A stretch of 64,000 bases of DNA from Tumebacillus algifaecis. Its GTDB lineage: Bacteria > Bacillota > Bacilli > Tumebacillales > Tumebacillaceae. Where the stretch lies: assembly GCF_002243515.1 (NCBI RefSeq), contig NZ_CP022657.1, positions 1,084,001-1,148,000 on the forward strand, given 5' to 3'. This document shows, piece by piece, positions 6,760-47,689 of this stretch (position 1 is its first letter; each line of letters starts with the position of its first letter). A program made the position numbers and the translations under genes. The notes under the pieces are model-generated. The model did no database searches and was not told the origin of the DNA. It saw only the letters and a list, made by a program, of their open reading frames with translations.

Positions 6760-6919
6760 TAATCCGAGTTGATAGACAAGCAGGAAAAGATGTGTGGGAA
6801 AGCCAACTTGTAACGACTGGACTGTGATCCTGTCTGGTCGTCTTGTTTTCTGCACATACTTGACCGAGGTATCCCCGTACAAGACAACAGCAACAAAGCA
6901 TAAGAAAGGGGCATGACTC

Positions 6920-32722: not shown

Positions 32723-32737
32723 AGAGGTGGAACCGAC

Positions 32738-34150: not shown

Positions 34151-34152
34151 CA

Positions 34153-34179
34153 AAAGGGACTCGCATCGCGAGTCCCTTT
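34153..34179. terminator. Bidirectional terminator between the Wzz and glycosyltransferase genes
   Basis: AAAGGGACTCGC-ATC-GCGAGTCCCTTT perfect 12-bp stem. It serves the plus-strand Wzz-like gene and the convergent glycosyltransferase gene. Confidence 0.92.
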
Positions 34180-34186
34180 CTGCTGT

Positions 34187-35215
34187 CTATGGTGTTTGGC
34201 TACTACATGGCGAGCATTGTCTGATCGAGCGGTACATCTCCAAAAATGTATCGCGTTCACGCTCCAACGAGAAATGTGTGGCGATAGTCTTCAGTGCCCC
34301 TTGGCTCAGTTTTTCCACCACGAGCGGATCGGTCACGAGCAGGCTGGCCTTTTCAGTCAACGCTGCTTCGTCATCATAGAGGAAGCCATTTTCACCGTCG
34401 GTGATCAGGTCGCGGTTGCCTGGCACGTCTGAGGCGAGCACCGCTTTTCCGATCGACATCGCTTCGAGCAGGGCATGGGAGAGTCCCTCGGAGGACGAGG
34501 TGTTCATCACCACGTCGGCTACGCGGTACAGATCGGCGATTTCTTCATAAGGCACCGAACCGAGATAGCGGGCAAACGGGCTGTCCGCAAATGCGGCCTC
34601 AACTTCGGCGCCCACATGATCATCGAGCACCGGGCCGACCAGCACGAAGCGCACCTGCGGATGTTGCTCATGCACGCGCTTCAACGGTTCGAACGCATCG
34701 AGCGGACGCTTTACCGGGCGCAGACCTGCGACGAGCAGGAACAGAAAATCGTCATCCGCTATGTCGAAATCGGCACGCGTTTTGCCTGCTCCCTGCGGTA
34801 GGTCGATCCCAAGGTTGATCACGTAAGACTTGTCTGCCGCTTTTGGACGGATGATGGCGAGACGATCTTTGGCATCGAGGGTCAAAAAGACGATCGCCGA
34901 TGAATAATCGACCGCTTCGCTCATCGTGGCGGACGTGTCAGGATGCCCGAGGTGTTCGTTGACATCGGTGCCAGTCATCGTCAGCACCAGCGGTTTGTTG
35001 TGACGCTTGGCATCCTTGACAATGTGGCGTCCGGTGACGTAGGCATTGTAGGCGTGTATGATGTCAGCCGCCGAAAAATCCGGGTCGGACACTTGATCGA
35101 GAGGTTTGATCGTGATGTTGATACCGTGCGGGCGCAAGTTTCGTTGCAGACGCCCTGAATAAGTCCAATTGCCGCCTGAAGGCTGGTTGGGCGGGAGAAC
35201 GATCAGGATGTTCAT
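34187..35215 (-). CDS. Family GT4 glycosyltransferase
   Basis: A 342-residue GT-B retaining glycosyltransferase. The N-terminal domain is MNILIVLPPNQPSGGNWTYS with the acceptor-side HAYNAYVTGRHI. The C-terminal donor-binding domain includes LLVAGLRPVKRPLDAFEPL and the EX7E motif SSEGLSHALLEAMSIGKAVL. AAAGGACCGATCCTC precedes the ATG. The product may be a lipid- or cell-wall-linked glycan. It converges on the Wzz gene, so a joint role in surface glycan formation is possible. Confidence 0.9.
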   Translation of the reverse strand: MNILIVLPPNQPSGGNWTYSGRLQRNLRPHGINITIKPLDQVSDPDFSAADIIHAYNAYVTGRHIVKDAKRHNKPLVLTMTGTDVNEHLGHPDTSATMSEAVDYSSAIVFLTLDAKDRLAIIRPKAADKSYVINLGIDLPQGAGKTRADFDIADDDFLFLLVAGLRPVKRPLDAFEPLKRVHEQHPQVRFVLVGPVLDDHVGAEVEAAFADSPFARYLGSVPYEEIADLYRVADVVMNTSSSEGLSHALLEAMSIGKAVLASDVPGNRDLITDGENGFLYDDEAALTEKASLLVTDPLVVEKLSQGALKTIATHFSLERERDTFLEMYRSIRQCSPCSSQTP

Positions 35216-35375
35216 GAGGATCGGTCCTTTCTCATACGCTATTCCTATTACTTTACCCTGACTCTTGATTCGCTACTGTCACCTGAACTACATTTTTTTC
35301 GTTTTGCGGCGAATTTACACGAACTTGTGTTATGATAAAAACAGAATTTCTTTGCGTGCGAATGAGGTGAGAGAG

Positions 35376-35609
35376 ATGTCGCTGTGGTTCAAATCACCGA
35401 TGCCAAAAAAGGTACAGGTGTTCTTTTTCATCTATGTTTTGCTCATCATGGCCACGTTCGCGTTGGTCGGGATCACGTTCTCGCAGTTCCATTATGGACT
35501 CGCCGGTCTTTTGTTGCTCGCGGCGGTGCTGATGGCAGGGATCGGGTTCATGGTTCGCAAACGAGTGCTGCGCAGCATGGGTGTGTTCGATCAAATCGAA
35601 GAAGCATAG
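35376..35609 (+). CDS. Small two-span membrane protein
   Basis: A 77-residue protein: a short basic N-terminus (MSLWFKSPMPKKVQ), two hydrophobic spans (VFFFIYVLLIMATFALVGIT and, after a short loop, AGLLLLAAVLMAGIGFMV) and a basic then acidic tail. ATG 35376 follows GAGGTGAGAG. It is 62 bp upstream of the two-component genes, with a hairpin between. It resembles YvlA/YtpI-like small proteins. The function is unknown. Confidence 0.65.
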   Translation: MSLWFKSPMPKKVQVFFFIYVLLIMATFALVGITFSQFHYGLAGLLLLAAVLMAGIGFMVRKRVLRSMGVFDQIEEA

Positions 35610-35613
35610 ACAG

Positions 35614-35644
35614 CAGGGGACCTGGGCAATGCCTGGGTTCCCTG
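35614..35644 (+). terminator. Hairpin between the small membrane gene and the response regulator
   Basis: CAGGGGACCTGGGC-AAT-GCCTGGGTTCCCTG, a strong hairpin with several wobble pairs and only a weak T tract. It is probably a partial terminator. Confidence 0.6.
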
Positions 35645-35671
35645 TGTTATACATAATGAGAGGTGACGGGC

Positions 35672-36379
35672 ATGGAGGAGGCGAAACGGATTTTCGTGGT
35701 GGATGATGATCCGAACATCCGTCTGATCATCACGCGTTATTTGGAAGCGGAAGGGTACAAAGTCAAGCAGTTTGTAAACGGAGAGCAATTGTTGACTGCG
35801 GTCGCTGACGAGGAGCCCGACATGGTGATTTTAGACCTGATGATGCCGGGAATTGACGGCTTTGAAGTCTGTCGCACGTTGCGTGCCAAGAGCCAGCTCC
35901 CAATCATCATGGTCTCAGCCAAAGATGATGAAGTGGATCGGATCGTCGGTCTCGAACTAGGCAGCGACGATTATCTGTCCAAACCGTTTTCGCCGCGTGA
36001 GCTGGTCGCCCGGGTCAAGACGGTGTTTCGCCGCTATTATGCCGGACTGGCAGTCAATCTGCCGAGCGAATCGGAAGCGGCAGGAGGGTTGCGTCTCAAA
36101 GATATCGCCCTGTTTCCGGAAGAGCGCAAAGTGATCTGCCAAGAGGTGGATATGGAGTTGACAGCAAAAGAGTTCGACCTTTTGCACTTTTTCGTCGGAC
36201 ATCTTAACAAAGCGTTCACCCGCGAGCAGCTGTTGACCCAAATCTGGGGATTCGATTATCTCGGTGATGAGCGAGCGATCGATGACCTTGTCAAACGATT
36301 GCGTAAGAAGCTAAAAGGAGCCGGGTCGCAATTGGAAATCACCACCGTTTGGGGATACGGTTACAAGGTCGAAGCATGA
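35672..36379 (+). CDS. OmpR-family response regulator
   Basis: A 235-residue regulator. The receiver domain has the acidic pocket VVDDDP (residues 9-14), phospho-acceptor D55 in VILDLMMPG, the switch Ser/Thr in IIMVSAKDD and the Lys in LSKPFSP. The C-terminal winged-helix domain includes LTAKEFDLLHFFVGHLNKAF and the recognition part DERAIDDLVKRLRKKLK. ATG 35672 after GAGAGGTG is chosen over GTG 35663. It overlaps the kinase gene by four bases (ATGA), so the two are coupled. Confidence 0.94.
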   Translation: MEEAKRIFVVDDDPNIRLIITRYLEAEGYKVKQFVNGEQLLTAVADEEPDMVILDLMMPGIDGFEVCRTLRAKSQLPIIMVSAKDDEVDRIVGLELGSDDYLSKPFSPRELVARVKTVFRRYYAGLAVNLPSESEAAGGLRLKDIALFPEERKVICQEVDMELTAKEFDLLHFFVGHLNKAFTREQLLTQIWGFDYLGDERAIDDLVKRLRKKLKGAGSQLEITTVWGYGYKVEA

Positions 36380-37755
36380 AACAGTGGAGCATTCGAACCA
36401 AATTGATCCTCTCCTATCTCCTGCTTGTCGTCGTGGCGCTGGCGATCTCCGGCGGAATGTTTTACGCGCTGGTCAACAAGGCGGTGACCAAGCAGGCGAT
36501 CGATTCATTGATCACGGGCGGGCATAATTTTTTGGAAATGTTAGAAGAGGAAGACTTGCCGTTTAGCGATGGGAGCATGACCGATCGGATGAAGCGCAAG
36601 ATCAAGCTATCCCTCGCCTCACGCACCACTACAGCCTCCTATGTGATCGCCCGCATCGAAGGTGGTCATACGGTGATGACGACCAATCTCGATGGAATGA
36701 AGCGCGGAGATAAATTTCAGTACCCGCTTGAGGGGTTAAAAGATCAGGAATCGCTAACCGACCGTGTCACGGTCGCCGATCATGAGTACCTGATCTATGC
36801 GACGCGAATGAACGAATTGAAAGACTATGCGCTCGTTCTGCTCGCCCCGCACGAAATCGTCAGTAGCGTGATCAAAGACATGCTGCGCCTGCTTTTGATC
36901 GGTTTTGTGCTGACTTCGGTGGTGGTCGTGTTGCTGGGAGTCATACTGTCGCGGTCACTGACCAAGCCGGTGAGCGTGCTTGGTGAGCAGATGCGCAGGT
37001 TGGCCAAGCGTGATTTTACCCCGCCGCAGATCGTGCGCACCGGGGATGAAATCGAAGAGGTCTCTCGTACCTTCGCTTCGATGGTAGCAGAGTTGAAAAG
37101 CTACGACCTCGCCCAACGCCGCTTTTTGCAAAATGCGTCCCATGAATTGAAAACGCCGCTGATGGCGATTCAAGGTTATGCGGAAGGGATCAAAGACGGA
37201 ATTTTCCAAGGCGAAGAAGCATCGGTTGGGCTGGAAGTGATCGCGCAGGAGTCTACGCGCTTAAAAGGGGTGGTCGATGAGCTGATCTACCTCTCGAAGC
37301 TGGAGACGATGGAAGCGATCTACCATCCCAGCGAGTTTGAATGCACAGAGTTTGTCGAAGACTCTCTGACCCGCGTCCGTTCACTCGCTCTGCAAAAAGG
37401 TGTCGAACTGCAACTGCACGGCTACGGTGTCTATCAGATCAAAGCTGACCGTGACAAACTGATGCAGGCGATGCTCAACTTGCTATCCAATGGCATTCGT
37501 CATGCCCGCTCGCAAGTCGATGTCAGACTGGCGAAAAAAGCTGGCATGCTGTCGATCACGATCCGAGACGATGGGGAAGGTTATCGCGGGTCGTTTGAGA
37601 CGATCTTTGAGCGCTTTTCCACAGGAGTCAAAGGCGAGACGGGGCTTGGCCTGGCGATCGTCAAAGCGATCGTCGAAAAATCAAACGGTACGATCCGCGC
37701 CGCCAATCATCCGCAGGGCGGGGCTGAATTTCACATCGAATTGCCACTTTCCTGA
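36376..37755 (+). CDS. Membrane sensor histidine kinase
   Basis: A 459-residue kinase with two spans (about 10-30 and 170-192) and an outer sensor domain of about 135 residues rich in charged residues. A HAMP domain (SRSLTKPVSVLGEQMRRLAK) follows, then the H-box NASHELKTPLMAIQGY with H256, N-box NLLSNGIRHA, G1 DDGEG, F-box FERFSTG and G2 GETGLGLAIVKA. It partners the preceding OmpR-type regulator. The signal is unknown. It converges on the TPR gene of the mini-peptide locus, and the two are separated by a terminator. Confidence 0.94.
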   Translation: MKQWSIRTKLILSYLLLVVVALAISGGMFYALVNKAVTKQAIDSLITGGHNFLEMLEEEDLPFSDGSMTDRMKRKIKLSLASRTTTASYVIARIEGGHTVMTTNLDGMKRGDKFQYPLEGLKDQESLTDRVTVADHEYLIYATRMNELKDYALVLLAPHEIVSSVIKDMLRLLLIGFVLTSVVVVLLGVILSRSLTKPVSVLGEQMRRLAKRDFTPPQIVRTGDEIEEVSRTFASMVAELKSYDLAQRRFLQNASHELKTPLMAIQGYAEGIKDGIFQGEEASVGLEVIAQESTRLKGVVDELIYLSKLETMEAIYHPSEFECTEFVEDSLTRVRSLALQKGVELQLHGYGVYQIKADRDKLMQAMLNLLSNGIRHARSQVDVRLAKKAGMLSITIRDDGEGYRGSFETIFERFSTGVKGETGLGLAIVKAIVEKSNGTIRAANHPQGGAEFHIELPLS

Positions 37756-37839
37756 AATCGGACCGATCCTGTTTCATGAAATGTTTGCCTCGAGGCGCAA
37801 GGTCGGACAAGATGGCGGTTGGCAAAGGTAAATGAAAAG

Positions 37840-37876
37840 AAAGAGCACGCTGGCCCTGATGGCAGCGTGCTCTTTT
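37840..37876. terminator. Bidirectional terminator between kinase and TPR genes
   Basis: AAAGAGCACGCTG / CAGCGTGCTCTTT stem with T run. It ends the two-component operon and, on the other strand, the mini-peptide operon. Confidence 0.92.
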
Positions 37877-37880
37877 TGCA

Positions 37881-39755
37881 TTAGATGATCATCTGCGAGA
37901 TCGACTGGTTCAAAATGTACGAACCGTAGTCCAAGTATTCGTTGGCATGTGCGACCACTTCGCCTTTGACAAACAGTTCAGCGAAGCGTGGCGGCAACAG
38001 TTCCTGTGCCTCATGGAAGACGCTTTGCGCCTGCTCGTCGTTGCCGAGCTTCAGGTGGCAGAGAATGATCGACATGTAGGTGTTGGTCAGGCGATTGTCA
38101 CCCAATTCGCGTTTTAAGGAAAGGGAACGCTCGTACCATTGCAACGCTTGATCGAAGCGCTCCAACTGGAAGTAGGTGACGGCCAGCGGTCGAACGCTAA
38201 TCTCCGCATTGAAGGAGTCGGCGTTCAGCATTGCAATCTTGTACGTCCGCTCGAAGGAGGCCAACGATTCCTCTTTCTTGCCCATGCGGTTTAAGATGTT
38301 GCCTTCGAAGTAGAAAAATTCCTTTTTGTAGACATCTGGAATGTTTTTGACCGAGTCACCGACCGTGTTTTGCCAGAGTTCGATCGCACTGTCGTAATCC
38401 TTGCCGAAGTAGTGCAGGTACGAAATGTTGATCGACAGGTTGTAAAACAGGCGCAGCGGCACTTTCGGGTCTTCCAGTTCTTCCATGACATTTTCGCCTT
38501 TTGCCATGTGCGAGAACGGCTTGATGCCCTCGTAGGCTGTGTTGGCGTATTCGAGCGCAAGCGGAATGTTGCGGTCGTGCAGGTAGGTGACATAGGCGAG
38601 GAAGTTGAACAGCCAGCAGCGCTCGTAGACGGTGTCAAAATCGGAGTGCCCTTCGGTCATGCGGATTCCCTCGTGCAGGAACTGTTTGGCGATGTCCCAG
38701 CGCCCGACGCGCTTGCCATAGCAGAGGGCGAGCAGATGATACGCTTTCGTGCTCTCCGACAGATGGCCCGCATAGTCGTTCATCAGGGTGAAAGCGTGGA
38801 TCGCCTCTGGGTACATTTCCATAAATGCCAAGGCCACCCCTTTTTGGCGCCAGATGTGAAAGCGGATCGCTCGTTCCTCTTCGGCGGGGAGCACTGGCAG
38901 ATGAGCGAGCATTTCATCGCCAAGGGTTAGCACTGCGTCCAAGTTATAATAGAGCATCGTAGAGGCAAGTTGATCCTTATATTTCTCCGTATCCCACTCA
39001 CCGCGGCGCATCTGTTCGACCACCTCGCGGATCGAATCGACCGTCTGCTCTCCTGCTTGTGAGGAGGGAGCCAGATCTGGTCCATCGCTTTTCGAGCCGA
39101 TCAAATGCAACGGCTTCAAAGCATCGGCGATAACCCCGAGCAATTTTTCAATCGCTTGACCGTTGTCGGACGTGATCTGACGGCCCACCGTGTCATAGGG
39201 GCGCTTTTGCATAACGAGAACGACTCGCTCCGCCTTCAGATTGTGCAGCAGGTGATAGATCGTCTGCAAGGACAGGCGGTCAGCATGCTGAATGTCGTGC
39301 AGGGCGATCACCAGCGGTTTGTGCTGTGCTACTTCTTTGAGCACGTGCGCTGCGAAATGCATGATGCGGTAGCCCCATTGAATGTCGCGATTCAAGCGAA
39401 GTTCAGACCACGAGTACGTGACTTGGTAAACATCGGGCAAGCCTTCGTAACTGCCTGGAAACAGACCGTTCATTTCGTGGTAGTAGTCGCGCCGAATCCA
39501 TTCCCATTGCGACCAGAGTGGCTTCGTTAGCAACAGCAGTTCTTTGATCGTGCCGAAAATCGTGCGGTCGAGCAGCGTGAGCGTAGTGCGGTAAAAATAA
39601 CCGTCCACGCCTGCAAACGAGGCAAATGTCTCATCGAGATCGGCCGGATCTCCGTTATCGATCCAGATGGTCTTACCGGAGGGCTTGCCTGCGAGCACAT
39701 CGCTCACGGCGGTCGAAACTTCGGTGGCGATGATTTGATCCAGCATCAAGTTCAT
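37881..39755 (-). CDS. STAND-like ATPase/TPR protein at the end of the mini-peptide operon
   Basis: A 624-residue soluble protein. The N-terminus has a P-loop-like AGKPSGKT (about residues 22-29, fitting [AG]-x4-GK[ST]) and, near 147-170, KPLVIALHDIQHADRLSLQT, which resembles the Walker B segment of MalT/AAA_16-type STAND ATPases. From about residue 280 to the end it is TPR repeats (e.g. RFDQALQWYERSLSLKRELG). No HTH is visible. TTAGGAGG lies upstream, and it starts 12 bp after the exporter gene. TPR domains of this kind often bind short peptides, so a receptor or regulator for the exported peptides is a reasonable but unproven reading. Confidence 0.75.
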   Translation of the reverse strand: MNLMLDQIIATEVSTAVSDVLAGKPSGKTIWIDNGDPADLDETFASFAGVDGYFYRTTLTLLDRTIFGTIKELLLLTKPLWSQWEWIRRDYYHEMNGLFPGSYEGLPDVYQVTYSWSELRLNRDIQWGYRIMHFAAHVLKEVAQHKPLVIALHDIQHADRLSLQTIYHLLHNLKAERVVLVMQKRPYDTVGRQITSDNGQAIEKLLGVIADALKPLHLIGSKSDGPDLAPSSQAGEQTVDSIREVVEQMRRGEWDTEKYKDQLASTMLYYNLDAVLTLGDEMLAHLPVLPAEEERAIRFHIWRQKGVALAFMEMYPEAIHAFTLMNDYAGHLSESTKAYHLLALCYGKRVGRWDIAKQFLHEGIRMTEGHSDFDTVYERCWLFNFLAYVTYLHDRNIPLALEYANTAYEGIKPFSHMAKGENVMEELEDPKVPLRLFYNLSINISYLHYFGKDYDSAIELWQNTVGDSVKNIPDVYKKEFFYFEGNILNRMGKKEESLASFERTYKIAMLNADSFNAEISVRPLAVTYFQLERFDQALQWYERSLSLKRELGDNRLTNTYMSIILCHLKLGNDEQAQSVFHEAQELLPPRFAELFVKGEVVAHANEYLDYGSYILNQSISQMII

Positions 39756-39767
39756 GCAACGAACCTC

Positions 39768-41000
39768 CTAAGCGATTTTACGTAATGGCGTGAAAAAGGA
39801 AATCAACCCGGATGCGACGATCATGGCGGTTGCCAGCAGATAGGTGATCACCGAACCGCTGGCCATGCCGATGGTGACCCCGCCGACCATACCGGCCAGT
39901 GGAATGCAGCAGTTGGAGATCGAGGTGATCGCACCTTCCACGCGGCCGAACATCTGGTTATCGATGTTGCCTTGCTTGTAGGCGTTCAAAATCACGTTCA
40001 TCACCACCACGCTGCCGAGCAGTACGCCCAGACCAAGCCCGGTCGCGATCCAGTGCGGTACCAAAGCGATCAGACCGCCGCCGATCAAGCCGCCAAAGGT
40101 CATCAGCGTGCTGAGCAGCTGGCCGCGACGAAAGCGCTTGGTCAGCGGTTGGCTGATCAAGGCGCCGAGGATACCGAAAATGCCGACCGAGGAGAACACC
40201 AGACCGACTCGATATTCATCCGCGCCCAACGTGTCGCGCAGGTAGAAGACCAGCGTTGACATGACCAGCCCGAGCCCAAAATTGCAGAACATCGAGATCG
40301 CGCCGATCGCCCGCAGGTCGATGCGGTTCCATCCGTACGCAAACCCTGATTTCATATCCTGCCAGATCGTTTTCGGTTCTTGGCCAGACAGATCCGGCTT
40401 TGGAATCGATCCGATCAGGAAGACGCAGAGCGCCATCACCAAGTAACTGAAAGCGCAGATGAAGATGGAAAGCGACGTGCCGATCGCTGCGAGCAGAGCA
40501 CCGGCGAGGATCGGCCCGAGCAGGCGAATCGTGTTGTCAACCAACTGCAGTTGACCATTCGATTTGATCAGTTGATCCTTATCGACCAGATTCGGGATGA
40601 CCGCAGACAAGGAAATATCGACAAAGAAGGAGAGCGTAGAGAGCACAAAGGACAATGCGAAAAGATAAGGCATGGACAGCAGATCCATCCAATAGAGCAA
40701 CGGAATCGAAACGATCAATAACATACGAGCTATATCGCAGACCATCATGATCTTACGGCGATCAGAACGGTCGATGATCACGCCACCAAGCGGCAACAAT
40801 AGCAGGAACGGCAAGGTTTCAAAAGCGAACACCGCTCCCATCTGCACCGACGACCCCGTCAGATCATAGGCCAGCCAGGGAAGTGCGAGCATGTAGATGT
40901 TGTTGCCAAGACGAGAAAAAAGCAACCCGAACAACAGGTAGTAAAAACGGTAGGCTTGTTTGGGCTGTGGTTGAGTTGGCTGCGTCAACGGATTAGACAT
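39768..41000 (-). CDS. MFS exporter of the mini-peptide locus
   Basis: A 410-residue, twelve-span major facilitator of the EntS/MFS_3-like export type. Motif A is in loop 2-3: GGVIIDRSDRRKIMMVCD (about residues 72-89). The central loop includes PKPDLSGQEPKTIWQDMKSG. The N-terminal cytoplasmic tail is rich in Pro/Gln (NPLTQPTQPQPKQ). The start overlaps the end of the flavoprotein gene by eight bases, so the two are coupled. Relatives export siderophores, drugs and peptides. Its place between the peptide-modifying enzyme and the TPR gene points to release of the modified peptides. Confidence 0.85.
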   Translation of the reverse strand: MSNPLTQPTQPQPKQAYRFYYLLFGLLFSRLGNNIYMLALPWLAYDLTGSSVQMGAVFAFETLPFLLLLPLGGVIIDRSDRRKIMMVCDIARMLLIVSIPLLYWMDLLSMPYLFALSFVLSTLSFFVDISLSAVIPNLVDKDQLIKSNGQLQLVDNTIRLLGPILAGALLAAIGTSLSIFICAFSYLVMALCVFLIGSIPKPDLSGQEPKTIWQDMKSGFAYGWNRIDLRAIGAISMFCNFGLGLVMSTLVFYLRDTLGADEYRVGLVFSSVGIFGILGALISQPLTKRFRRGQLLSTLMTFGGLIGGGLIALVPHWIATGLGLGVLLGSVVVMNVILNAYKQGNIDNQMFGRVEGAITSISNCCIPLAGMVGGVTIGMASGSVITYLLATAMIVASGLISFFTPLRKIA

Positions 41001-41562
41001 ACAGCCCTTGCCCCCTTAAAATCTCTTCTAAACGCGGGATAAACTGGCTATAGGAAGGCATCGCACCTTGCACTCTTTGTCCAGTGGAGAGCTGGATCGC
41101 GTCTTCTCCGCCTGGTTCGACGATCAGGTAGCCGTCCTCTTTAAGTCGGCGCAAGTTGCGCTGCATCGCAGGGCGATTGAGCATGTGTTCGTTCATGTTC
41201 GGGCAAAATACGACCGGACACTTCGCCGCCATCGCAGCGGTGGAGAGCAGATCATCAGCAATGCCGTTGGCTACCTTGCCCACGATGTTGGCGCTGGCCG
41301 GGATAATCACCATCAGGTCGGCCCAAGCGGTCAGATGAATGTGCGGAATTTTAAATTGGTCGGTCGAGTCGGTCGATTTTAAAAACACATTTCCATCGAT
41401 GAAATAGTTGACCGTGCTGCTTTGGAGCATCGAGGCGGCACTTTCGGTCATAATGACATGTACGCTTGCGCCCCAAGTGCTGCGAAGAGCTGTGAGATAG
41501 TTTTGAATTTCTACTGCGCCGATCGACCCGGAAATGCCTACGAGCACTTTGTTGATGTCCAA
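40993..41562 (-). CDS. EpiD/LanD-like flavoprotein cysteine decarboxylase
   Basis: A 189-residue HFCD-family flavoprotein (EpiD, MrsD, PPC decarboxylase group). FMN site VLVGISGSIGA (6-16); catalytic His in PHIHLTAWADL (H74 is the likely equivalent of EpiD H67); PASAN motif 88-92 followed by KVANGIADDLLS; substrate clamp PNMNEHM (121-127). It lacks the PPC-synthetase half of Dfp, as expected for a dedicated peptide decarboxylase. TTG 41562 is chosen because GGAGGGG sits six bases before it, although the frame opens at 41625. Such enzymes oxidatively decarboxylate a C-terminal Cys to an aminoenethiol; four Cys-ending mini-peptides lie just upstream. Confidence 0.85.
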   Translation of the reverse strand: MDINKVLVGISGSIGAVEIQNYLTALRSTWGASVHVIMTESAASMLQSSTVNYFIDGNVFLKSTDSTDQFKIPHIHLTAWADLMVIIPASANIVGKVANGIADDLLSTAAMAAKCPVVFCPNMNEHMLNRPAMQRNLRRLKEDGYLIVEPGGEDAIQLSTGQRVQGAMPSYSQFIPRLEEILRGQGLYV

Positions 41563-41586
41563 GTGAGTCCCCTCCATAAATGAGTG

Positions 41587-41616
41587 AAAAGCCCGGATGG
41601 AACCATCCAGGCTTTT
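41587..41616 (-). terminator. Attenuator-like hairpin between mini-peptides and decarboxylase gene
   Basis: On the minus strand AAAAGCCTGGATGG-TT-CCATCCGGGCTTTT forms a 13-pair stem with one mismatch, ending in TTTT. Placed between the peptide genes and the enzyme gene, it would let most transcripts stop after the peptides, a common way to make more precursor than enzyme. Confidence 0.75.
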
Positions 41617-41640
41617 GAGATGCATGTTATGAGTCAGTGA

Positions 41641-41667
41641 TTAGCAAACCCAGACTTGATCTTTCAC
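41641..41667 (-). CDS. Mini-peptide precursor 4, MKDQVWVC
   Basis: An eight-codon gene, GTG start, TAA stop, encoding MKDQVWVC. Ribosome site GGAGGTGA (41680-41673) five bases upstream. An in-frame ATG at 41682 would give a 13-residue form, but it overlaps the ribosome site, and the GTG form aligns exactly with mini-peptide 2 (MKDPVFVC). The C-terminal W-V-C fits the EpiD substrate rule. It lies about 80 bp upstream of the decarboxylase gene with a hairpin between. Confidence 0.75.
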   Translation of the reverse strand: MKDQVWVC

Positions 41668-41711
41668 GACTGTCACCTCCATGCGTCTCAAGTGTTATCA
41701 TGAAAATGAAA

Positions 41712-41747
41712 CTAGCAGATGAAGATCGGTTCGAAAGTTTGTGCCAT
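41712..41747 (-). CDS. Mini-peptide precursor 3, MAQTFEPIFIC
   Basis: An eleven-codon gene encoding MAQTFEPIFIC, ATG start, TAG stop, with GGAGGTGA (41760-41753) five bases before the ATG. There is no leader segment: the whole product is 11 residues and ends F-I-C. It shares with the other three peptides the aromatic-aliphatic-Cys end, one or more acidic residues and identical translation signals, while the bodies differ. Confidence 0.75.
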   Translation of the reverse strand: MAQTFEPIFIC

Positions 41748-41795
41748 GGTTGTCACCTCCCTACAGTAGTTTAGAAGTTCTCGTTGGAAAGGAAA

Positions 41796-41822
41796 TTAGC
41801 AAACGAATACCGGATCTTTCAT
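41796..41822 (-). CDS. Mini-peptide precursor 2, MKDPVFVC
   Basis: An eight-codon gene encoding MKDPVFVC, ATG start, TAA stop, with GGAGGTGA (41834-41827) four bases before the ATG. It is 6/8 identical to mini-peptide 4, with both changes conservative in kind (P/Q at 4, F/W at 6), which suggests gene duplication and selection on the peptide sequence. It ends F-V-C. Confidence 0.75.
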   Translation of the reverse strand: MKDPVFVC

Positions 41823-41952
41823 ATTGTCACCTCCGCACCAACGTAAATATCGAAAGAAGAATGTATTTAATTCAACCACTTGTATGAATGAATACTACAA
41901 GCGGGGACATGATTCCTACCTGAAATTGAAAAAATCTGAAAATAAATGATGG

Positions 41953-41975
41953 AGCCCGGTAAGAAAACCCGGGCT
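41953..41975 (-). terminator. Hairpin after mini-peptide 1
   Basis: AGCCCGG / CCGGGCT stem (minus strand, loop of nine bases) 11 bp after the first mini-peptide stop, followed by an AT-rich stretch (CCATCATTTATTTTC). It may end or thin the transcript of peptide 1. From here to peptide 2 (about 130 bp, AT-rich) no gene is visible; it may hold a second promoter. Confidence 0.55.
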
Positions 41976-41986
41976 TTGGTTTGAAA

Positions 41987-42034
41987 CTAGCAGAGGTAGA
42001 TGTTGATATCGCCTACTTTGACGTTGCGCTCCAT
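41987..42034 (-). CDS. Mini-peptide precursor 1, MERNVKVGDINIYLC
   Basis: A fifteen-codon gene, ATG to TAG, encoding MERNVKVGDINIYLC. GGAGGTGA (42048-42041) precedes the ATG. It ends Y-L-C, again aromatic-aliphatic-Cys. It is the most upstream of the four and is set apart from them by about 165 bp with a hairpin. Region 42035-42253 between it and the divergent HesB-like gene is AT-rich, with tandem CGAGTAT/CGAGTGT near 42091-42105, and presumably carries both promoters. Confidence 0.72.
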   Translation of the reverse strand: MERNVKVGDINIYLC

Positions 42035-42253
42035 GTCTGTTCACCTCCGATTCTAAATTAATAAAGGTTGTTCTGAAATATAAATACTACACTCGATACT
42101 CGAACTCCTTTCTATTAGTCAAAATTAATTGAAAAAATCTGCAACTTCCCATCGGCGGCAGTTTTTTGGTACTTTGAACAGGCAAAGATCTTGTACAGAT
42201 CGAATGCACTACCGCAAGACACACGATTTCAATTGAACAAGGGGGAAGCAACT

Positions 42254-42562
42254 GTGATCTCCATAACGGACCGCGCTAAAGAAGCACTGCACATCTACCA
42301 GACTGTAGGCGAGACGCTGACTTTGCGCTTTTTTATCGAAACGGAAGGCGGCTGAAGCGCTACAACCTTTTATGATTTGGCTCTGGATGAGCCAAGAGCG
42401 GATGATGAAGTGATCGACGCAGGTGACAACATCCAAGTGGTCGTCGATCGCGGGTCGTGGTTTTTTGTCGATGAGCCATTGAAAATCGATTACGAGCCCG
42501 CAGAAAAAGCGTTTCGGATTCGGGCGGCGACCCACGTGATCCCTGACCGAATCAAGTTGTAA
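42254..42562 (+). CDS. Second HesB-like protein with in-frame TGA (candidate selenoprotein)
   Basis: Read through TGA at 42353-42355, this gives a 102-residue HesB-like protein: MISITDRAKEALHIYQTVGE, then TLTLRFFIETEGG-U34-SATTFYD, LALDEPRADDEVIDAGDN, and an end without Cys. The TGA replaces the first cluster Cys, as in the 18564 gene. Both start MISITD-AKE and share LALDE. GTG 42254 follows AAGGGGGAAG. A perfect SECIS-like hairpin lies 21-40 nt after the TGA. Without readthrough both halves would be too short to fold. It is divergent from the mini-peptide operon (220 bp). Sec insertion is inferred; HesB-like selenoproteins are a known family. Confidence 0.75.
42376..42396 (+). promoter_or_regulatory. 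SECIS-like hairpin in the second HesB-like gene
   Basis: TTGGCTC (42377-42383), loop TGGAT, GAGCCAA (42389-42395): seven perfect pairs plus an outer T-G. The loop Gs are about 30 nt after the TGA. The stem and loop sequence match the hairpin at 18680-18700 almost base for base, including third codon positions. Confidence 0.65.
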
Positions 42563-42603
42563 CCAATGTCGTCGCGCTGTCCAAGCTGTCAATTGGCAAA
42601 TAA

Positions 42604-42640
42604 AAAGCGGCTTGCAGAGTAAGACTCTGCAAGCCGCTTT
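42604..42640. terminator. Bidirectional terminator between the HesB-like and fabI genes
   Basis: AAAGCGGCTTGCAGAGT-AAG-ACTCTGCAAGCCGCTTT, a perfect 17-bp stem with A/T ends. Confidence 0.93.
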
Positions 42641-42655
42641 GCGTGTTGGTATCGT

Positions 42656-43426
42656 TTAGCCCATGATGTGGTAGCCAGCGTCCACGTGAATCGTTTCGCC
42701 GGTGATGCCGCTGGCCAAGTCGGAAGCGAGGAACAGCGCGGTCTTGGCGACTTCTTCCTGCGTGATGTTGCGGCGCAGCGGGGATTTTTCTGCCACTTGC
42801 GGGAGGATCGACGTGAAGTTTTTCACGCCGCGCGCAGCGAGCGTGTTGATCGGACCTGCGGAGATCGCGTTGACGCGGATGCCCTGCGGACCGAGGTCAT
42901 TGGCGAGGTAGCGCACGCTATGTTCCAGCGCTGCTTTGGCCACACCCATCACGTTATAGTTGCTGACGATGCGCTCACCACCGATATAGGTCATCGTGAT
43001 GATCGAGCCGCCTTCTGTCATCATCTCTTTTGCTTCCTTGGCGATGGTGACCAGCGAATATGCCGAGATGTCATGTGCGAGCAAGAAGCCTTCGCGGGAC
43101 GTGTTGACAAAGCTGCCTTCCAAATCCTCAGCTTTTGCGTACGCCAAGGAGTGAACGACCCCATCCATCGTGCCCCATTCTGCCTTGAGCTGACCAAACG
43201 CAGCGGTGATTTCTTCGTCGCGGGTGACATCGACAGAAATCAACGACGAGCCCGGCATGGTCGTTTCCACGAGCTTTTGTACACGGGATTCCAAACGCTC
43301 CCCTTGGTAGCTGAATGCGAGGGTTGCGCCCGCTTCGTGCAGCGCTTTGGCGATCGCCCAAGCAATCGAGCGGTCATTGGCAACGCCCATGATCAAGAAC
43401 TTTTTACCGGCTAACAGTTGGTTCAT
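42656..43426 (-). CDS. fabI: Enoyl-ACP reductase FabI
   Basis: A 256-residue SDR enzyme for the last step of fatty-acid elongation (NADH/NADPH-dependent). FabI signature GVANDRSIAWAIAKALHEAG at the N-terminus replaces the normal SDR glycine motif, SLAYA holds the cofactor, and the catalytic pair is in YNVMGVAKAALE (Y-x6-K). It ends GETIHVDAGYHIMG. ATG 43426 with AAAGGAG is the start; the frame extends upstream without support. The promoter region contains a FapR operator. A second reductase (FabL type) is encoded at 55032. Confidence 0.95.
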   Translation of the reverse strand: MNQLLAGKKFLIMGVANDRSIAWAIAKALHEAGATLAFSYQGERLESRVQKLVETTMPGSSLISVDVTRDEEITAAFGQLKAEWGTMDGVVHSLAYAKAEDLEGSFVNTSREGFLLAHDISAYSLVTIAKEAKEMMTEGGSIITMTYIGGERIVSNYNVMGVAKAALEHSVRYLANDLGPQGIRVNAISAGPINTLAARGVKNFTSILPQVAEKSPLRRNITQEEVAKTALFLASDLASGITGETIHVDAGYHIMG

Positions 43427-43457
43427 ATTCAATCTCCTTTGTGAGTAGAATACACTC

Positions 43458-43473
43458 TTAGTACCTAGTACTA
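43458..43473 (-). promoter_or_regulatory. FapR operator at the fabI promoter
   Basis: TTAGTACCTAGTACTA, a near-perfect palindrome that matches the Bacillus FapR box (TTAGTACC-N-GGTACTAA type). On the minus strand TATAGT (-10-like) overlaps it, so FapR binding would block fabI transcription and malonyl-CoA would relieve it. This is known for the FapR regulon and inferred here. Confidence 0.82.
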
Positions 43474-43624
43474 TATTGAACGATTTTGCCGCAAAGGACA
43501 AGTCCTGGCTTTCCTAACATTTTTTTCTCGAGGTAAAAATGAGAAAGGGTGAAACTCTACTCGCGTTCGCTCGTATACTAGATGCGGTGCTTAGCAACCG
43601 AGCATACACAAGGAGAGTACCCCC

Positions 43625-44140
43625 ATGGGATTTTTCGATAAGATAAAAGGAATTTTTGGCGCTGACAAACCGAAGGGTTTGGAACAACGAACATTGGTCA
43701 ACCTAAAAGTTGGCGATATCATTTCGATCGACCTGACCGATTACGAGGTGACAGGTATCACGATCTATCGCGGCGGCTCCAAGCAACGCATCGGGTATCT
43801 GCTGAACGATGCCGGCCGCAAGTGCTTCTTGCTCGTCGAGACGAAAGAGGTCATCCGAGCTTTCCTGTATGAAACGATTCAAGCTCGTCTTGCCAACCCT
43901 GAAGCGGTCAACTACGAGATGATCTACGACGGGTTGTCCTATTTTGAAAAAGTGCGCGGAGAGTCGAACGTCAACGTGATCGGCCAAAGCGCATTTAACA
44001 CGGTCGATCCGGTCCATTGGTGGATGCACGTTGCCGATAGCGGGCAGGCAATGTTAATCGAATGGCAAAACGGAGAGACGATCTTTCGCATCGGAGCCCC
44101 GATCAAAGCGGACCACATCACGATCTTCGCCAACAACTAA
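43625..44140 (+). CDS. DUF4178-domain protein
   Basis: A 171-residue soluble protein. The N-terminus MGFFDKIKGIFGADKPKG looks amphipathic and may touch the membrane. The body (LKVGDIISIDLTDYEVTGIT onward, then WWMHVADSGQAMLIEWQNGE) matches DUF4178, a small beta-barrel-like domain. ACAAGGAG precedes the ATG. It is 31 bp upstream of the YidC-like gene. Relatives occur beside membrane-stress and spore genes; the function is not known. Confidence 0.72.
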   Translation: MGFFDKIKGIFGADKPKGLEQRTLVNLKVGDIISIDLTDYEVTGITIYRGGSKQRIGYLLNDAGRKCFLLVETKEVIRAFLYETIQARLANPEAVNYEMIYDGLSYFEKVRGESNVNVIGQSAFNTVDPVHWWMHVADSGQAMLIEWQNGETIFRIGAPIKADHITIFANN

Positions 44141-44171
44141 CGAACTAGACCTGATAGGAAGAGGGAGATAG

Positions 44172-44909
44172 ATGAGCAACTGGGCCGTTGTACAATTTCT
44201 AGCTGGGCTGCTACATCCTGTTTTGAACACGATCGAAGGAGTTGTTCACGACTGGGGACTGGCTGTCATTTTGTTTACCTTATTGGTTCGACTGGTCTTT
44301 TTCCCCATTTCGGTGCGTCAAGCACGGTTCGCATGGAAAAACCGCAAATTCTCTAAAGCGATCAAGGAGTTGCGCACGCGTTTTGCCGATAAGCCGGAGC
44401 GACTGCGCGAAGAGACGACCCGACTCGCCTTGGAACACAAGTTCAACCCGTTTGGCGCGCTCGGCACGGCGATCTTGCAAATGCCGATCTTCGCTGCGGT
44501 GTATGCGTTGTTTTATCACTTTGGAGCAGACATCACGTCGGTGCTGATCCCGTGGGCTTCGGCGCTCGGTCACAACGACTCCACACACGTGCTCCCGATG
44601 ATCGCTGCCCTGTTCACCGCAGGTGGTGCCTTGGTGCCGCTGATCCAGCCGGAAGCGGTTGAGCAGATGGCTGCGCTCAAAAAACTGACGCCGATGCTGA
44701 TGATGCTGCCGCTGATGTTGTTCGTGCTTTGGAAAGCGCCGGTGGCGATCTCCTTGTACATGGGCACCACGGCGCTTTGGGGAATGCTTGAGCGCACATT
44801 TTTGCGAAGCGCGTTTGCTGTCAAGCGCTTCCGCCTCGATCCGGACGCGATTTTCTCGTCTGGGCAGGGAGGAGTCATAGCTACAGAAGACGAAACAAAA
44901 AAAGCGTAG
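44172..44909 (+). CDS. YidC/Oxa1/SpoIIIJ-family membrane insertase
   Basis: A 245-residue insertase that helps small membrane proteins into the bilayer. The core of five spans starts with WGLAVILFTLLVRLVFFPIS; Arg40 in this helix is the conserved positive charge of the substrate groove. A cytoplasmic hairpin of about 40 residues (KFSKAIKELRTRFADKPERL) follows, then MPIFAAVYALF. There is no lipobox Cys at the N-terminus, unlike most Gram-positive YidC1/2. It looks shorter and divergent, so it may be an accessory paralogue. GAAGAGGGAG precedes the ATG. Confidence 0.85.
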   Translation: MSNWAVVQFLAGLLHPVLNTIEGVVHDWGLAVILFTLLVRLVFFPISVRQARFAWKNRKFSKAIKELRTRFADKPERLREETTRLALEHKFNPFGALGTAILQMPIFAAVYALFYHFGADITSVLIPWASALGHNDSTHVLPMIAALFTAGGALVPLIQPEAVEQMAALKKLTPMLMMLPLMLFVLWKAPVAISLYMGTTALWGMLERTFLRSAFAVKRFRLDPDAIFSSGQGGVIATEDETKKA

Positions 44910-44929
44910 CCCGCAAGGCTGCGCTTTTT
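44899..44929 (+). terminator. Terminator after the YidC-like gene
   Basis: AAAAGCGTAGCC / GGCTGCGCTTTTT hairpin (one wobble), overlapping the stop codon. Confidence 0.88.
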
Positions 44930-44978
44930 GTTCAATCAAGTTTTTTTCGAACTAAATAGGAAAAAAGGAGTGGGTGAG

Positions 44979-45410
44979 ATGCATTACACAGTCGTCCCGA
45001 TCATCCAAGATGAGCCGCTTACCTTGGGCGCAGAGCATCTGCCCCTCGACGGGTCAGAAGGTGAGCGTTGGAAAAAAGCGATTCAGAGCTTGCACCCGCG
45101 CCTCTTGCCCTCGTTGAAAGAAAATGCACTGCTCTCCGAAGAAGACAGCGAGTTCTGCGTGGCAGGCGGCATTTTTGATTATGAGCGGGGCCGCGAGCTT
45201 GTGTTCGACGGCACCGAACTTCGCTTATCGCACTGTGCTGAGAACTTTTTCGATTTCTTGATGGCACCTGTAGACTGTTTGCATGTCTTAGCCGAGCGGC
45301 AGGAGCAATGCGCAGAGATCGAAAGCAGTGCTGACAACAGAGCGCGCCTTGCTGTGCTCACCGCCTGGTGGGAGCAAGGGTATCGCGTTCTGATGCTGCA
45401 ACATCAATAA
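44979..45410 (+). CDS. Hypothetical protein upstream of the SSADH gene
   Basis: A 143-residue acidic, soluble protein (MHYTVVPIIQDEPLTLGAEH...) with four Cys and no family I recognise. ATG 44979 follows AAAAAAGGAGTGGGTGAG. It ends 18 bp before the succinate-semialdehyde dehydrogenase gene, so the two are probably one transcript, but nothing in the sequence ties it to that reaction. Confidence 0.6.
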   Translation: MHYTVVPIIQDEPLTLGAEHLPLDGSEGERWKKAIQSLHPRLLPSLKENALLSEEDSEFCVAGGIFDYERGRELVFDGTELRLSHCAENFFDFLMAPVDCLHVLAERQEQCAEIESSADNRARLAVLTAWWEQGYRVLMLQHQ

Positions 45411-45428
45411 GCGAGGAGATGTAGCCCG

Positions 45429-46865
45429 ATGACCGTGGATTCGAACAAATTATTCATAAATGGCGACTGGATTTCGGCGGGAGGCACCTTTCCGATCCAT
45501 GATCCGGCGACAGGAGAAATCGTCGGCTACGCGGCCGACGCTGAACAAAGCCACGCCCTGCTGGCGGTCGAAGCGGCGCATACCGCGTTTCCCACATGGT
45601 CGAAAACGCCCGCACCGAAGCGTTCCGCCCTGCTTTATAGATGGTACGAACTGATCATGGAACATCGTGACGAGATCGCGACCCTGCTGACCTGTGAGAT
45701 GGGCAAGCCGTTTCCGGAAGCGAAAGGGGAAGTCAGCTTCGCAGCAAACTTTGTGCTATGGTATGCAGAGGAAGCCAAGCGGATCTATGGCGACACGGTC
45801 CCGTCCAACGAACCGAACAAACGAATCACTGTGCTGCGCCAGCCGGTCGGCGTCGTCAGTGCGATCACCCCGTGGAACTTCCCGGCGGCGATGGTCACTC
45901 GCAAAGTCGCTCCGGCGCTGGCGGCTGGCTGCACAGTCATTCTAAAGCCTGCTGAGCAGACACCGCTCACGGCGATCCGTCTGGTCGAGTTGGCCGAAGT
46001 GGCCGGCTTTCCTGCGGGCGTGTTCAATTTGGTGACGACCAGCAAACCGGCCGAAGTCGGTAACGTGCTGACCACCGACCCGCGCGTTCGCAAAGTCACG
46101 TTTACAGGCTCGACCGAAGTTGGCAAACTGCTCTATCGCCAAGCGGCCGACACCATCAAACGCGTCTCGCTGGAGTTGGGCGGTCACGCACCGTTCATCG
46201 TCTTTGCAGATGCGGAGATCGACCTTGCTGTTCAAGGGGTAATCGCCTCCAAATATCGCAATGCGGGCCAAACTTGTATCTGCACCAATCGCGTCTACGT
46301 CCACGAAAGCATCGCCGCGTCGTTTGCTGAAAAGCTGAGGCAGGCGGTCAGCACATTGCAGGTCGGGCCCGGAATGAAAGAAGGCGTTCACATCGGCCCG
46401 CTGATCGATGAGCACGCGCTAGCCAAGGTGGAACGCCATGTTGAAGATGCGTTGGCCAAAGGTGCGACGCTTTTGATCGGCGGAAGTCGGGAAGGTGAGC
46501 AAGGCTACTTTTTCCAAGCGACGGTGCTCAACCATGCCACCGAAGACATGCAGATAGCGACCGAAGAAACATTTGGTCCTGTCGCGCCGATCTTCACCTT
46601 TCAAAGCGAAGAGGAAGTGCTGGCCCGCGCAAACGATACGCCCTACGGCTTGGCCGCGTACTTCTACACCCGCGACATCGGTCGCGTCACGCGGATGCAA
46701 GAAAACTTGGAGTACGGCATCATCGGAGTCAATGATCCGGCGCCGTCTGTGGCGATTCAAGCGCCGTTTGGCGGGGTGAAAGAGAGCGGTTTGGCTCGCG
46801 AAGGCGGCAAATATGGCTTGGATGCCTTTCTTGAAACGAAATATATCTCGTTGGCCTTTGCATAA
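45429..46865 (+). CDS. gabD: NAD(P)-dependent succinate-semialdehyde dehydrogenase
   Basis: A 478-residue aldehyde dehydrogenase of the SSADH clade, oxidising succinate semialdehyde to succinate in the GABA branch. Cofactor site TPWNFPAAMVTRK, FTGSTEVGK; general base E249 in LELGGHAPF; nucleophile C283 in NAGQTCICTNR. C285 two residues on can form the redox-switch disulfide known in GabD-type enzymes. C-terminal FGGVKESGLAREGGKYG fits. A GABA transaminase gene is not in the window. GCGAGGAGATG lies upstream. Confidence 0.88.
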   Translation: MTVDSNKLFINGDWISAGGTFPIHDPATGEIVGYAADAEQSHALLAVEAAHTAFPTWSKTPAPKRSALLYRWYELIMEHRDEIATLLTCEMGKPFPEAKGEVSFAANFVLWYAEEAKRIYGDTVPSNEPNKRITVLRQPVGVVSAITPWNFPAAMVTRKVAPALAAGCTVILKPAEQTPLTAIRLVELAEVAGFPAGVFNLVTTSKPAEVGNVLTTDPRVRKVTFTGSTEVGKLLYRQAADTIKRVSLELGGHAPFIVFADAEIDLAVQGVIASKYRNAGQTCICTNRVYVHESIAASFAEKLRQAVSTLQVGPGMKEGVHIGPLIDEHALAKVERHVEDALAKGATLLIGGSREGEQGYFFQATVLNHATEDMQIATEETFGPVAPIFTFQSEEEVLARANDTPYGLAAYFYTRDIGRVTRMQENLEYGIIGVNDPAPSVAIQAPFGGVKESGLAREGGKYGLDAFLETKYISLAFA

Positions 46866-46895
46866 AAAACACCCTACGCAGTGGTGCGCAGAGTG
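46864..46895 (-). terminator. Terminator of the metallophosphoesterase gene
   Basis: On the minus strand CACTCTGCGCA-CCAC-TGCGTAGGGTG (two wobbles) followed by TTTTTT. The stem overlaps the last codons of the gene. Confidence 0.75.
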
Positions 46896-47689
46896 TGAAC
46901 GGTAATCTCCGGACGGGTGCCGAGGCGGACATTGAGTCCAGCTTGGCCCATCCCGTCTGAGATGTAGATGTTTTTGCCAAACACATGATGGGAGCCGGAG
47001 ATCACATTCGATTTTGGCAACTCGCCCATCGGAAACAGCTTGAATGCGCCGGGAATCTTAAACTGGCCGCCGTGTAGATGGCCGGAGAGCATCAGATCGA
47101 ACGCGTGCTCCTCCATCTCCAGCACGATGTTCGGGTCGTGTGACAGCACGAGGTTGATGCCGTCTTCCACACCGCGAAACGAGCGTGGGATGTCCGATTT
47201 GCCAAGGCAGAAATCATCGATGCCGATAATGTTCAGGCGCTTTTCGCCAAACAGGATCGACTCGCTCTCATTCTCCAACACCTTCACACCTTTGGCGCGG
47301 ATCAGCTCGCCCAGATGCTCGATGCGGTCGCCAAGGTAGTGATCATGGTTGCCCCAGACCAGCCAAATGCCATGTTTCGGCTCTGTTGCAACAATCGCGT
47401 CCAAATAAAGCATAAATTTGTCCAAGTTCTTATAGTTATCCAAATAATCACCCGTCATCACGATCAGATCCGGCTTCGCGTCTGTGATGGCATCGACCAA
47501 TCGGGCCGGGGAGATCGACTGACGCTCCATATGCAAATCGGATAGCTGCACGATGCGCAGTTCCGCAAATCCTCCATCCTTCTCAAGGGTCATCTCGACT
47601 TTACGGATGACCGGACGGAACGTGTTCCAATGCGCATAGGACAACACTAGCACAACAGCTACAGCCACAATCATCAATAGGTAGAACAT
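46874..47689 (-). CDS. YkuE-like membrane-anchored metallophosphoesterase
   Basis: A 271-residue calcineurin-like phosphoesterase with an N-terminal membrane anchor (LLMIVAVAVVLVLSYAHW). The two-metal site is complete: LSDLHM (D-x-H), TGDYLD, WGNHDH, LSHDP and SGHLHGGQ. The family includes B. subtilis YkuE and UDP-2,3-diacylglucosamine hydrolase-like enzymes; the substrate here is unknown. AAGAAGGTGACTCTCG precedes ATG 47689. Confidence 0.9.
   Translation of the reverse strand: MFYLLMIVAVAVVLVLSYAHWNTFRPVIRKVEMTLEKDGGFAELRIVQLSDLHMERQSISPARLVDAITDAKPDLIVMTGDYLDNYKNLDKFMLYLDAIVATEPKHGIWLVWGNHDHYLGDRIEHLGELIRAKGVKVLENESESILFGEKRLNIIGIDDFCLGKSDIPRSFRGVEDGINLVLSHDPNIVLEMEEHAFDLMLSGHLHGGQFKIPGAFKLFPMGELPKSNVISGSHHVFGKNIYISDGMGQAGLNVRLGTRPEITVHTLRTTA

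Follow-up and report, generated by a model that had tools for sequence, protein, structure and literature searches.

Short peptides that are modified at the C-terminus are known from microcin C and from ribosomally synthesised and post-translationally modified peptides (RiPPs) with LanD-type flavoproteins. In the microcin C cluster, a precursor gene of 7 codons is separated by a transcription terminator from the gene for the enzyme, whose target is the C-terminal residue; a pump is also encoded, and the authors of one account state that the precursor, enzyme and pump genes should suffice (PMC6495379). Open reading frames (ORFs) of 2–8 codons can undergo reiterative translation, according to two papers (PMC6495379, PMC7136475). 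A review describes class I decarboxylation as independent of the leader and reports head-to-tail cyclisation of short peptides after modification by MicD (PMC12328550). The subject here is a cassette in the window, a stretch of 64,000 nucleotides from Tumebacillus algifaecis (contig NZ_CP022657.1, positions 1,084,001 to 1,148,000), in which four minute genes ending in a Cys codon lie upstream of genes for a flavoprotein, a major facilitator superfamily (MFS) transporter and a tetratricopeptide repeat (TPR) protein. The favoured reading, with a probability of roughly 0.7, is a leaderless, multi-substrate mini-RiPP cassette whose peptides would undergo C-terminal oxidative decarboxylation and then export.

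The mini-genes occupy positions 41641–42034 of the minus strand as four ORFs of 8–15 codons, each with its own Shine-Dalgarno (SD) sequence, GGAGGTGA. They were compared across three genomes of the genus, namely the 4.5-Mb genome that contains the window, Tumebacillus avium AR23208 and a third genome, G006. The genes of the cassette are listed below.

41987–42034, minus strand: mini-gene 1, MERNVKVGDINIYLC; ATG start, SD GGAGGTGA; orthologues MERNITFGDINIWIC in T. avium and MERNIAVGDINIWIC in G006.
41796–41822, minus strand: mini-gene 2, MKDPVFVC; ATG start, SD GGAGGTGA; orthologue MRDPVYLC in both T. avium and G006.
41712–41747, minus strand: mini-gene 3, MAQTFEPIFIC; ATG start, SD GGAGGTGA; family with one copy in the window, three in T. 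avium and two in G006.
41641–41667, minus strand: mini-gene 4, MKDQVWVC; GTG start, SD GGAGGTGA; orthologues MQDQVWVC in T. avium and MDDQVWVC in G006.
40993–41562, minus strand: EpiD/MrsD-like flavoprotein (PF02441), 189 aa; TTG start; PF02441 score of 107.5 bits against a cut-off of 22.7.
39768–41000, minus strand: MFS transporter, 410 aa; PF07690 score of 98.8 bits; 8-nt overlap with the flavoprotein gene.
37881–39755, minus strand: TPR protein with a degenerate STAND/AAA-like N-terminus, 624 aa; TPR_12 score of 50.3 bits; 12 nt past the MFS gene.

The cassette of Cys-ending mini-genes is confirmed as an observation. The initial annotation had described four such genes with SD sequences ahead of the flavoprotein, MFS and TPR genes, and all are located in this region. 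Its four peptides stand, and two gene starts are corrected: mini-gene 4 starts with GTG and the flavoprotein probably with TTG at 41562. The TTG start is favoured; at the corresponding position the T. avium flavoprotein has its ATG, so the 210-aa ORF is over-extended. On both strands of the 64-kb window there are ten ORFs of 6–20 codons with a GGAGG site; four of these end in Cys and they are exactly the four mini-genes. When the 498-nt region was dinucleotide-shuffled 2,000 times, 1,995 shuffles contained no Cys-ending mini-ORF with an SD sequence, five contained one and none contained more, against four observed.

Judged by sequence comparison, the mini-genes are supported most strongly by being conserved in both of the other genus genomes. 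The order of mini-genes, flavoprotein, MFS and TPR genes is syntenic in all three, and the neighbours, including an enoyl-ACP reductase and a HesB-like gene, are also in identical order. The T. avium flavoprotein is 91% identical to that of the window. Four peptides are encoded in the window, six in T. avium and five in G006.

T. avium peptides (6): MERNITFGDINIWIC, MRDPVYLC, MSYEPIFLC, MVVSDPIFLC, MVVTDPIFIC, MQDQVWVC.
G006 peptides (5): MERNIAVGDINIWIC, MRDPVYLC, MASYEPIFIC, MIVVTDPIFIC, MDDQVWVC.

The SD sequence is GGAGGTGA in 14 of the 15 mini-genes and GGTGGTGA in the remaining one, from G006. In all 15 peptides the only Cys is the C-terminal residue and the tail has the form aromatic-[VIL]-Cys. 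Position -2 is I, L or V (6, 5 and 4 peptides), position -3 is F, W or Y (7, 5 and 3) and position -4 is I or V (9 and 6). The uniform hydrophobic Cys tail noted in the initial annotation thus extends to 15/15 peptides, with F/W/Y at -3 and V/I/L at -2. Conservation of the mini-genes had been proposed there as a test; they adjoin the orthologous flavoprotein gene in 3/3 genus genomes, so the reading is not refuted. In 93 pairwise codon comparisons, not independent of one another, within three orthologous families, whole mini-genes differ at codon positions 1, 2 and 3 by 17/8/24. In the last six codons (54 comparisons) the differences are 4/4/14, with eight synonymous and eight non-synonymous changes.

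The flavoprotein was described at the outset as EpiD-like and of the HFCD type, and this holds: PF02441 is above its cut-off and MrsD is the best match by both sequence and fold. The closest sequence in the PDB is MrsD (1.3e-31), followed by 7cfu (SpaF), 6jls (TvaF), CoaBC, a human protein and EpiD. The structural model has a pLDDT (predicted local distance difference test) of 87.8, and the fold ranking runs MrsD, SpaF, phosphopantothenoylcysteine (PPC) decarboxylase, CoaBC and EpiD, including EpiD H67N, so named in the title of the PDB entry, with DSYTC. His74 is aligned with a His of MrsD and is invariant in 11/11 aligned rows. A PNMN (PxMN) motif is present; its Asn is absent in the homologues at loci L025, L026, L028 and L040. 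His74 and the PxMN motif presumably have a catalytic role. EpiD has been crystallised with the pentapeptide substrate DSYTC (title of PDB 1g5q), in which an aromatic residue stands two places before Cys, as in 15/15 of the peptides. From the EpiD–DSYTC structure it follows that a pentapeptide with this arrangement can be bound. For the tail preference that the initial annotation ascribed to EpiD peptide-library work, no source was found in the open-access literature searched.

The likeliest interpretation of these sequences is that the peptides are decarboxylated with no leader involved. The mini-peptides would be taken as complete substrates of 8–15 aa, and their hydrophobic tail would be bound by the flavoprotein. 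With flavin mononucleotide, the enzyme would oxidise the C-terminal Cys and release CO2, leaving a C-terminal aminoenethiol or thioaldehyde that is 46 Da lighter. The predicted loss of 46.005 Da would shift the calculated [M+H]+ of MKDPVFVC from 938.447 to 892.442, that of MKDQVWVC from 1008.464 to 962.459, that of MAQTFEPIFIC from 1299.611 to 1253.606 (1168.571 to 1122.565 if Met is removed) and that of MERNVKVGDINIYLC from 1766.893 to 1720.887. Without dehydrated Ser or Thr, an aminovinyl-cysteine (AviCys) ring would usually not form. The product could stay an enethiol, form a disulfide or close head to tail via the reactive (thio)aldehyde, and the MFS protein would export it. The least certain part is the TPR protein, which could act as peptide sensor, in self-protection or as a scaffold for the decarboxylase.

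AviCys was considered as a general product and rejected. The spacing T/S-X2-6-C is present in one of the four window peptides and in 6/15 overall. A scan of 13 proteins from 31841–47689, smaller ORFs not included, gave no dehydratase, cyclase, YcaO, radical SAM, ThiF-like or peptidase match at the threshold used; a dehydratase or cyclase acting in trans from a distance would lie outside its scope. AviCys rings are unlikely because 9/15 peptides have no suitably placed Ser or Thr and the 13 proteins include no dehydratase or cyclase.

Flavoprotein searches covered 7 genomes of the family, 14 of the order, 398 of the class (E 1e-35) and 398 of the phylum (E 1e-36), a sample that leaves out about half of the known species. 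In the strict searches, homologues beyond the genus (38–46% identity) are present in 5/398 class genomes, one of them as a CoaBC-length frame, and in 1/398 phylum genomes. Cys-ending mini-ORFs were scanned for at loci L001–L016 and at the larger loci L021–L026, L028 and L039–L041, and no mini-gene array is present at the scanned loci outside the genus; a second scan close to the flavoprotein at L021, L023, L025, L026, L028, L040 and L041 gave none either. Cys-ending ORFs encoding a 4-mer (L023), a 20-mer (L024), a 7-mer and a 25-mer (L013) and a 17-mer (L027) were set aside as chance occurrences. A contiguous tail motif, which covers D/E-P-I/V-F/Y-x-C tails with TAA or TAG stops, not all Val codons and no Trp tails, matches in 13 of 378 class genomes. 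Nine matches are within the arrays of the three genus genomes; at those in the ten other class genomes (n = 10) there is no SD-start mini-ORF, and they are fewer than the roughly 25 matches obtained when the pattern was reversed as a control. Thus this motif, built for the commonest tail, revealed no array in the 375 class genomes outside the genus. Arrays of the Trp type could be missed because the motif is limited to these tails. On this sample, the mini-gene arrays are restricted to one genus.

The TPR protein, in the 398 class genomes, is present outside the genus only in G053 (two copies) and G057, in all cases without Cys mini-genes. A distant flavoprotein is present in 19 plasmid records, two neighbourhoods of which were inspected, and no TPR protein was found on plasmids. 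Viral contigs gave no match, the query used there being able to recover only close relatives.

In a sister genus, flavoproteins at loci L021–L024 and L028 are 30–42% identical to that of the window. Their Pfam-assigned neighbours are a radical SAM protein, two TldD-like proteins and an MFS protein in L021, a radical SAM protein in L022, a B12-type radical SAM protein in L023 and MFS and radical SAM proteins in L028; the remaining neighbours were judged by eye. Two of these loci share a conserved 29-aa ORF that ends in CNNCWC and has a good ribosome site (L022, 4862–4951, plus strand, MKKSLKKPQAVVVANVQAYDNENCNNCWC; L024, 4011–4100, plus strand, MKKALKKPQAVVVANVQAYDNEGCNNCWC). It is flanked on one side by a radical SAM gene (assigned by Pfam in L022) and on the other by a gene that by eye looks subtilisin-like, and the LanD-like flavoprotein follows after about 2 kb. 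The ORF is apparently a different short Cys-ending precursor. At L021 an ORF of up to 116 aa on the minus strand (11371–11721) contains six TVPTQNTNNNVC repeats and ends in NNNVC. It adjoins the MFS protein, the two TldD-like proteins, the LanD-like flavoprotein and the radical SAM enzyme, and L021 is apparently a different, multi-core RiPP locus. A 24-aa ORF, MEWIQKPDAALDPPQHFDSNCHNC, that ends in DSNCHNC is located between a radical SAM gene (Pfam) and a LanD-like flavoprotein at L041 (genome G697; 6779–6853, plus strand). The Cys-ending peptides beside the homologues in L021, L022, L024 and L041 support the view that flavoproteins of this group act on a C-terminal Cys, and they raise the odds of the favoured reading slightly.

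Several observations weigh against the decarboxylation proposal. The arrays occur in a single genus and in three genomes only. Over whole mini-genes, non-synonymous codon changes outnumber synonymous ones (22 vs 11). In the codons ahead of the last six, the differences are 13/4/10 with no excess at third positions, and 3 synonymous changes stand beside 14 non-synonymous. The flavoprotein scores 25.5 bits with the CypD model NF033753, far below the cut-off of 215, and its highest NCBIfam score, 147.8 bits, is with CoaBC, itself below the equivalog cut-off of 219.7. A tree of 14 flavoproteins, from which 6/8 CoaBC loci were left out, does not resolve its placement. Some HFCD enzymes require a partner protein, TvaE and KinH being named in one paper (PMC9415263), and no kinase-like partner was seen at the locus; the TPR protein might be the partner of this flavoprotein. 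Because the excess of third-position differences is confined to the last six codons (4/4/14 vs 13/4/10), selection probably constrains the tail of the mini-peptides and leaves the front nearly free. In favour of the proposal, the flavoprotein is not the housekeeping CoaBC copy, since a separate CoaBC-length frame (L012, 433 aa) exists in the same genome.

The mini-gene region also contains two copies of a promoter-like box and two hairpins.

42083–42109, minus strand: promoter-like box ahead of mini-gene 1, AGGA-N15-GTAGTATT.
41891–41917, minus strand: second copy of the promoter-like box, upstream of mini-gene 2.
41953–41975, minus strand: hairpin, possible terminator, after mini-gene 1; z -2.6 in the window, -3.9 in T. 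avium, -3.2 in G006.
41587–41616, minus strand: hairpin in the gap between mini-gene 4 and the flavoprotein; z -2.9 in the window (slightly cut), -5.4 in T. avium; sequence near-identical in the three genomes.

Boxes with the consensus AGGA-N14/15-GTRGWATT stand ahead of both mini-gene 1 and mini-gene 2 in all three genomes; one further copy lies elsewhere in the window and another in an unrelated locus. The mini-gene region probably comprises two transcription units, because the 164-nt gap between mini-genes 1 and 2 holds a hairpin and the second box. The label of terminator is inferred, since a consensus terminator scan listed neither hairpin. A promoter scan returned one weak site, a number no higher than in shuffles. 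The only Rfam match (E 0.52) is outside the cassette and irrelevant to it.

The MFS transporter scores 173.5 bits with TIGR00900, under the cut-off of 319.6; EntS, Tap and a ryptide exporter match it less strongly. The TPR protein has orthologues with 73 and 71% identity. Of its original designation as STAND/TPR, the TPR part is borne out by TPR_12, and the STAND part is weakly supported, with an AAA_16 match below cut-off (19.1 bits, E 0.002) and a poor N-terminal model. The overall model has a pLDDT of 62.5, poor especially in the N-terminal domain; its best fold match is 6mfv, a STAND-TPR protein, followed by LGN and others that include Rap. Among distant homologues of this protein, the one at L035 is beside a lantibiotic-dehydratase-like gene (PF04738), those at L036 and L037 are beside genes that by eye encode MFS proteins, and an M16-peptidase-like gene (also by eye) is present at L037. 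A pairing of STAND-TPR and MFS proteins may recur in peptide loci. At L037, an acidic ORF of 33 aa (9344–9243, minus strand), which resembles a leader and has a ribosome site, overlaps the start of the called TPR ORF.

Two alternative functions concern what the peptides do. A peptide signal system, in which the peptides, possibly modified, are exported and then sensed, with the STAND-like/TPR protein as their reader in the manner of Rap and Phr, is a tentative possibility and is compatible with decarboxylation. The C-terminal TPR part, the several related peptides per genome and fold matches to Rap and NprR, some of them peptide-bound, are consistent with it, but these matches rank under STAND-TPR and LGN, TPR fold matches are promiscuous and the TPR model is poor. 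The cassette is also without a peptide-uptake gene, and Pfam and NCBIfam assign the TPR protein no DNA-binding domain. The peptides could instead be antimicrobial, either microcin-C-like or reactive aldehydes, with the MFS pump and the TPR protein providing export and immunity. This too is a minority possibility, well short of even odds. Several peptide variants per genome are consistent with it, and precursor, modifying enzyme and pump are also what the smallest microcin C gene set consists of (PMC6495379), but a toxin target or immunity enzyme is recognised in 0/13 scanned proteins.

Two further alternatives were weighed. Export of unmodified thiol peptides, for metal or redox purposes, with the flavoprotein acting on another thiol substrate, is improbable. 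Each peptide has exactly one Cys and the flavoprotein also resembles PPC decarboxylases, but a free thiol needs no uniform aromatic-[VIL]-Cys-stop tail. The gene adjacency in three genomes, MrsD as the best flavoprotein match and the homologues elsewhere that are also beside Cys-ending peptides speak against it as well. More improbable still are regulatory leader peptides, whose stalling in response to cysteine supply would determine how far the hairpins are read through towards the flavoprotein genes. ORFs this short, with a Cys codon at the end and hairpins downstream, fit such an attenuator; it is unlikely because there are 4–6 different tandem ORFs, each with its own SD sequence and a single Cys codon, in varying copy number, with amino-acid constraint over the tail, a box ahead of each of the two sets and no relevant Rfam match.

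The ten further proteins scanned around the cassette are of the Wzz/AAA, glycosyltransferase, response regulator, histidine kinase, enoyl-ACP reductase, DUF4178, 60-kDa membrane-insertion, aldehyde dehydrogenase and phosphoesterase types, and one is without a match. The adjacent HesB/IscA-like gene (42254–42562, plus strand) contains an in-frame TGA at 42353–42355 (GG-TGA-S), kept in 3/3 genus genomes. When the TGA is read as selenocysteine, the PF01521 match is 1.4e-10, and the genome has SelB over its cut-off. The gene is a candidate selenoprotein, with an unconvincing downstream fold (z -1.1 and -1.6), and no selenocysteine tRNA was found in the 4.9-kb SelB locus.

Mining based on LanD spanned 21,911 actinobacterial and 30,666 firmicute genomes in one study and demanded precursors of 20–100 aa with T/S-Xn-C (PMC11162475). 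With these requirements it could not find the present peptides. No description of this cassette was found in the open-access literature searched. Gene callers seldom report genes of 8 codons. Such systems would stay unseen because the mining rules exclude them and gene callers skip such genes. The cassette looks like an undescribed, extremely small route to modified peptides. If the proposal is true, a LanD enzyme is the sole maturase of whole gene products, and neither a leader nor a ring nor a protease is involved. This would be a genetically minimal path to C-terminal enethiol or thioaldehyde peptides, with possible reactive C-termini for bioconjugation. With four defined peptides and one small enzyme, the question is directly testable.

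The likeness to Rap and NprR systems is a TPR-rich protein beside small peptides; it is at fold level only, and the N-terminus here is STAND-like. The sister-genus loci and L041 share an MFS gene beside the flavoprotein (L021, L028) and a Cys-ending short peptide (L021, L022, L024, L041). They differ in their radical SAM proteins (L021, L022, L023, L028, L041), in the TldD-like proteins of L021 and in their peptides, which have 24–29 aa or, where the six repeats occur, up to 116 aa and are not in arrays.

With LanD, EpiD and MrsD the cassette shares the enzyme family, the C-terminal Cys, an aromatic residue two places before it as in the EpiD ligand, and the reaction expected from sequence. 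Unlike the LanD/AviCys RiPPs, it has precursors of only 8–15 aa with no leader, no dehydratase or cyclase among the 13 proteins and a majority of peptides without T/S-X2-6-C. The initial annotation set the locus apart from lanthipeptide, linaridin and thioamitide loci by its lack of a leader, lanthionine enzymes, cyclodehydratase and protease, but it overlooked an architectural precedent in microcin C (PMC6495379).

The shared features with microcin C (mccA-mccB-mccC), one of the peptide-nucleotide RiPPs, are a leaderless mini-gene whose whole product is used, a terminator, here inferred, an enzyme for the C-terminal residue and a pump. Two of the four peptide families have 8 codons, within the range of 2–8 codons given for reiterative translation; the others have 9–11 and 15. 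MccC is an MFS protein. The differences are that MccB is an adenylyltransferase acting on a C-terminal Asn, whereas a PF02441 flavoprotein and Cys are found here, and that the Escherichia coli cluster has one precursor against 4–6 different ones in these genomes; an MccB-type adenylyltransferase is present in 0/13 scanned proteins. The cassette thus belongs fully to neither the microcin C nor the LanD/AviCys family. Its production logic and architecture, by analogy, are closest to those of microcin C, and its chemistry would be LanD-like.

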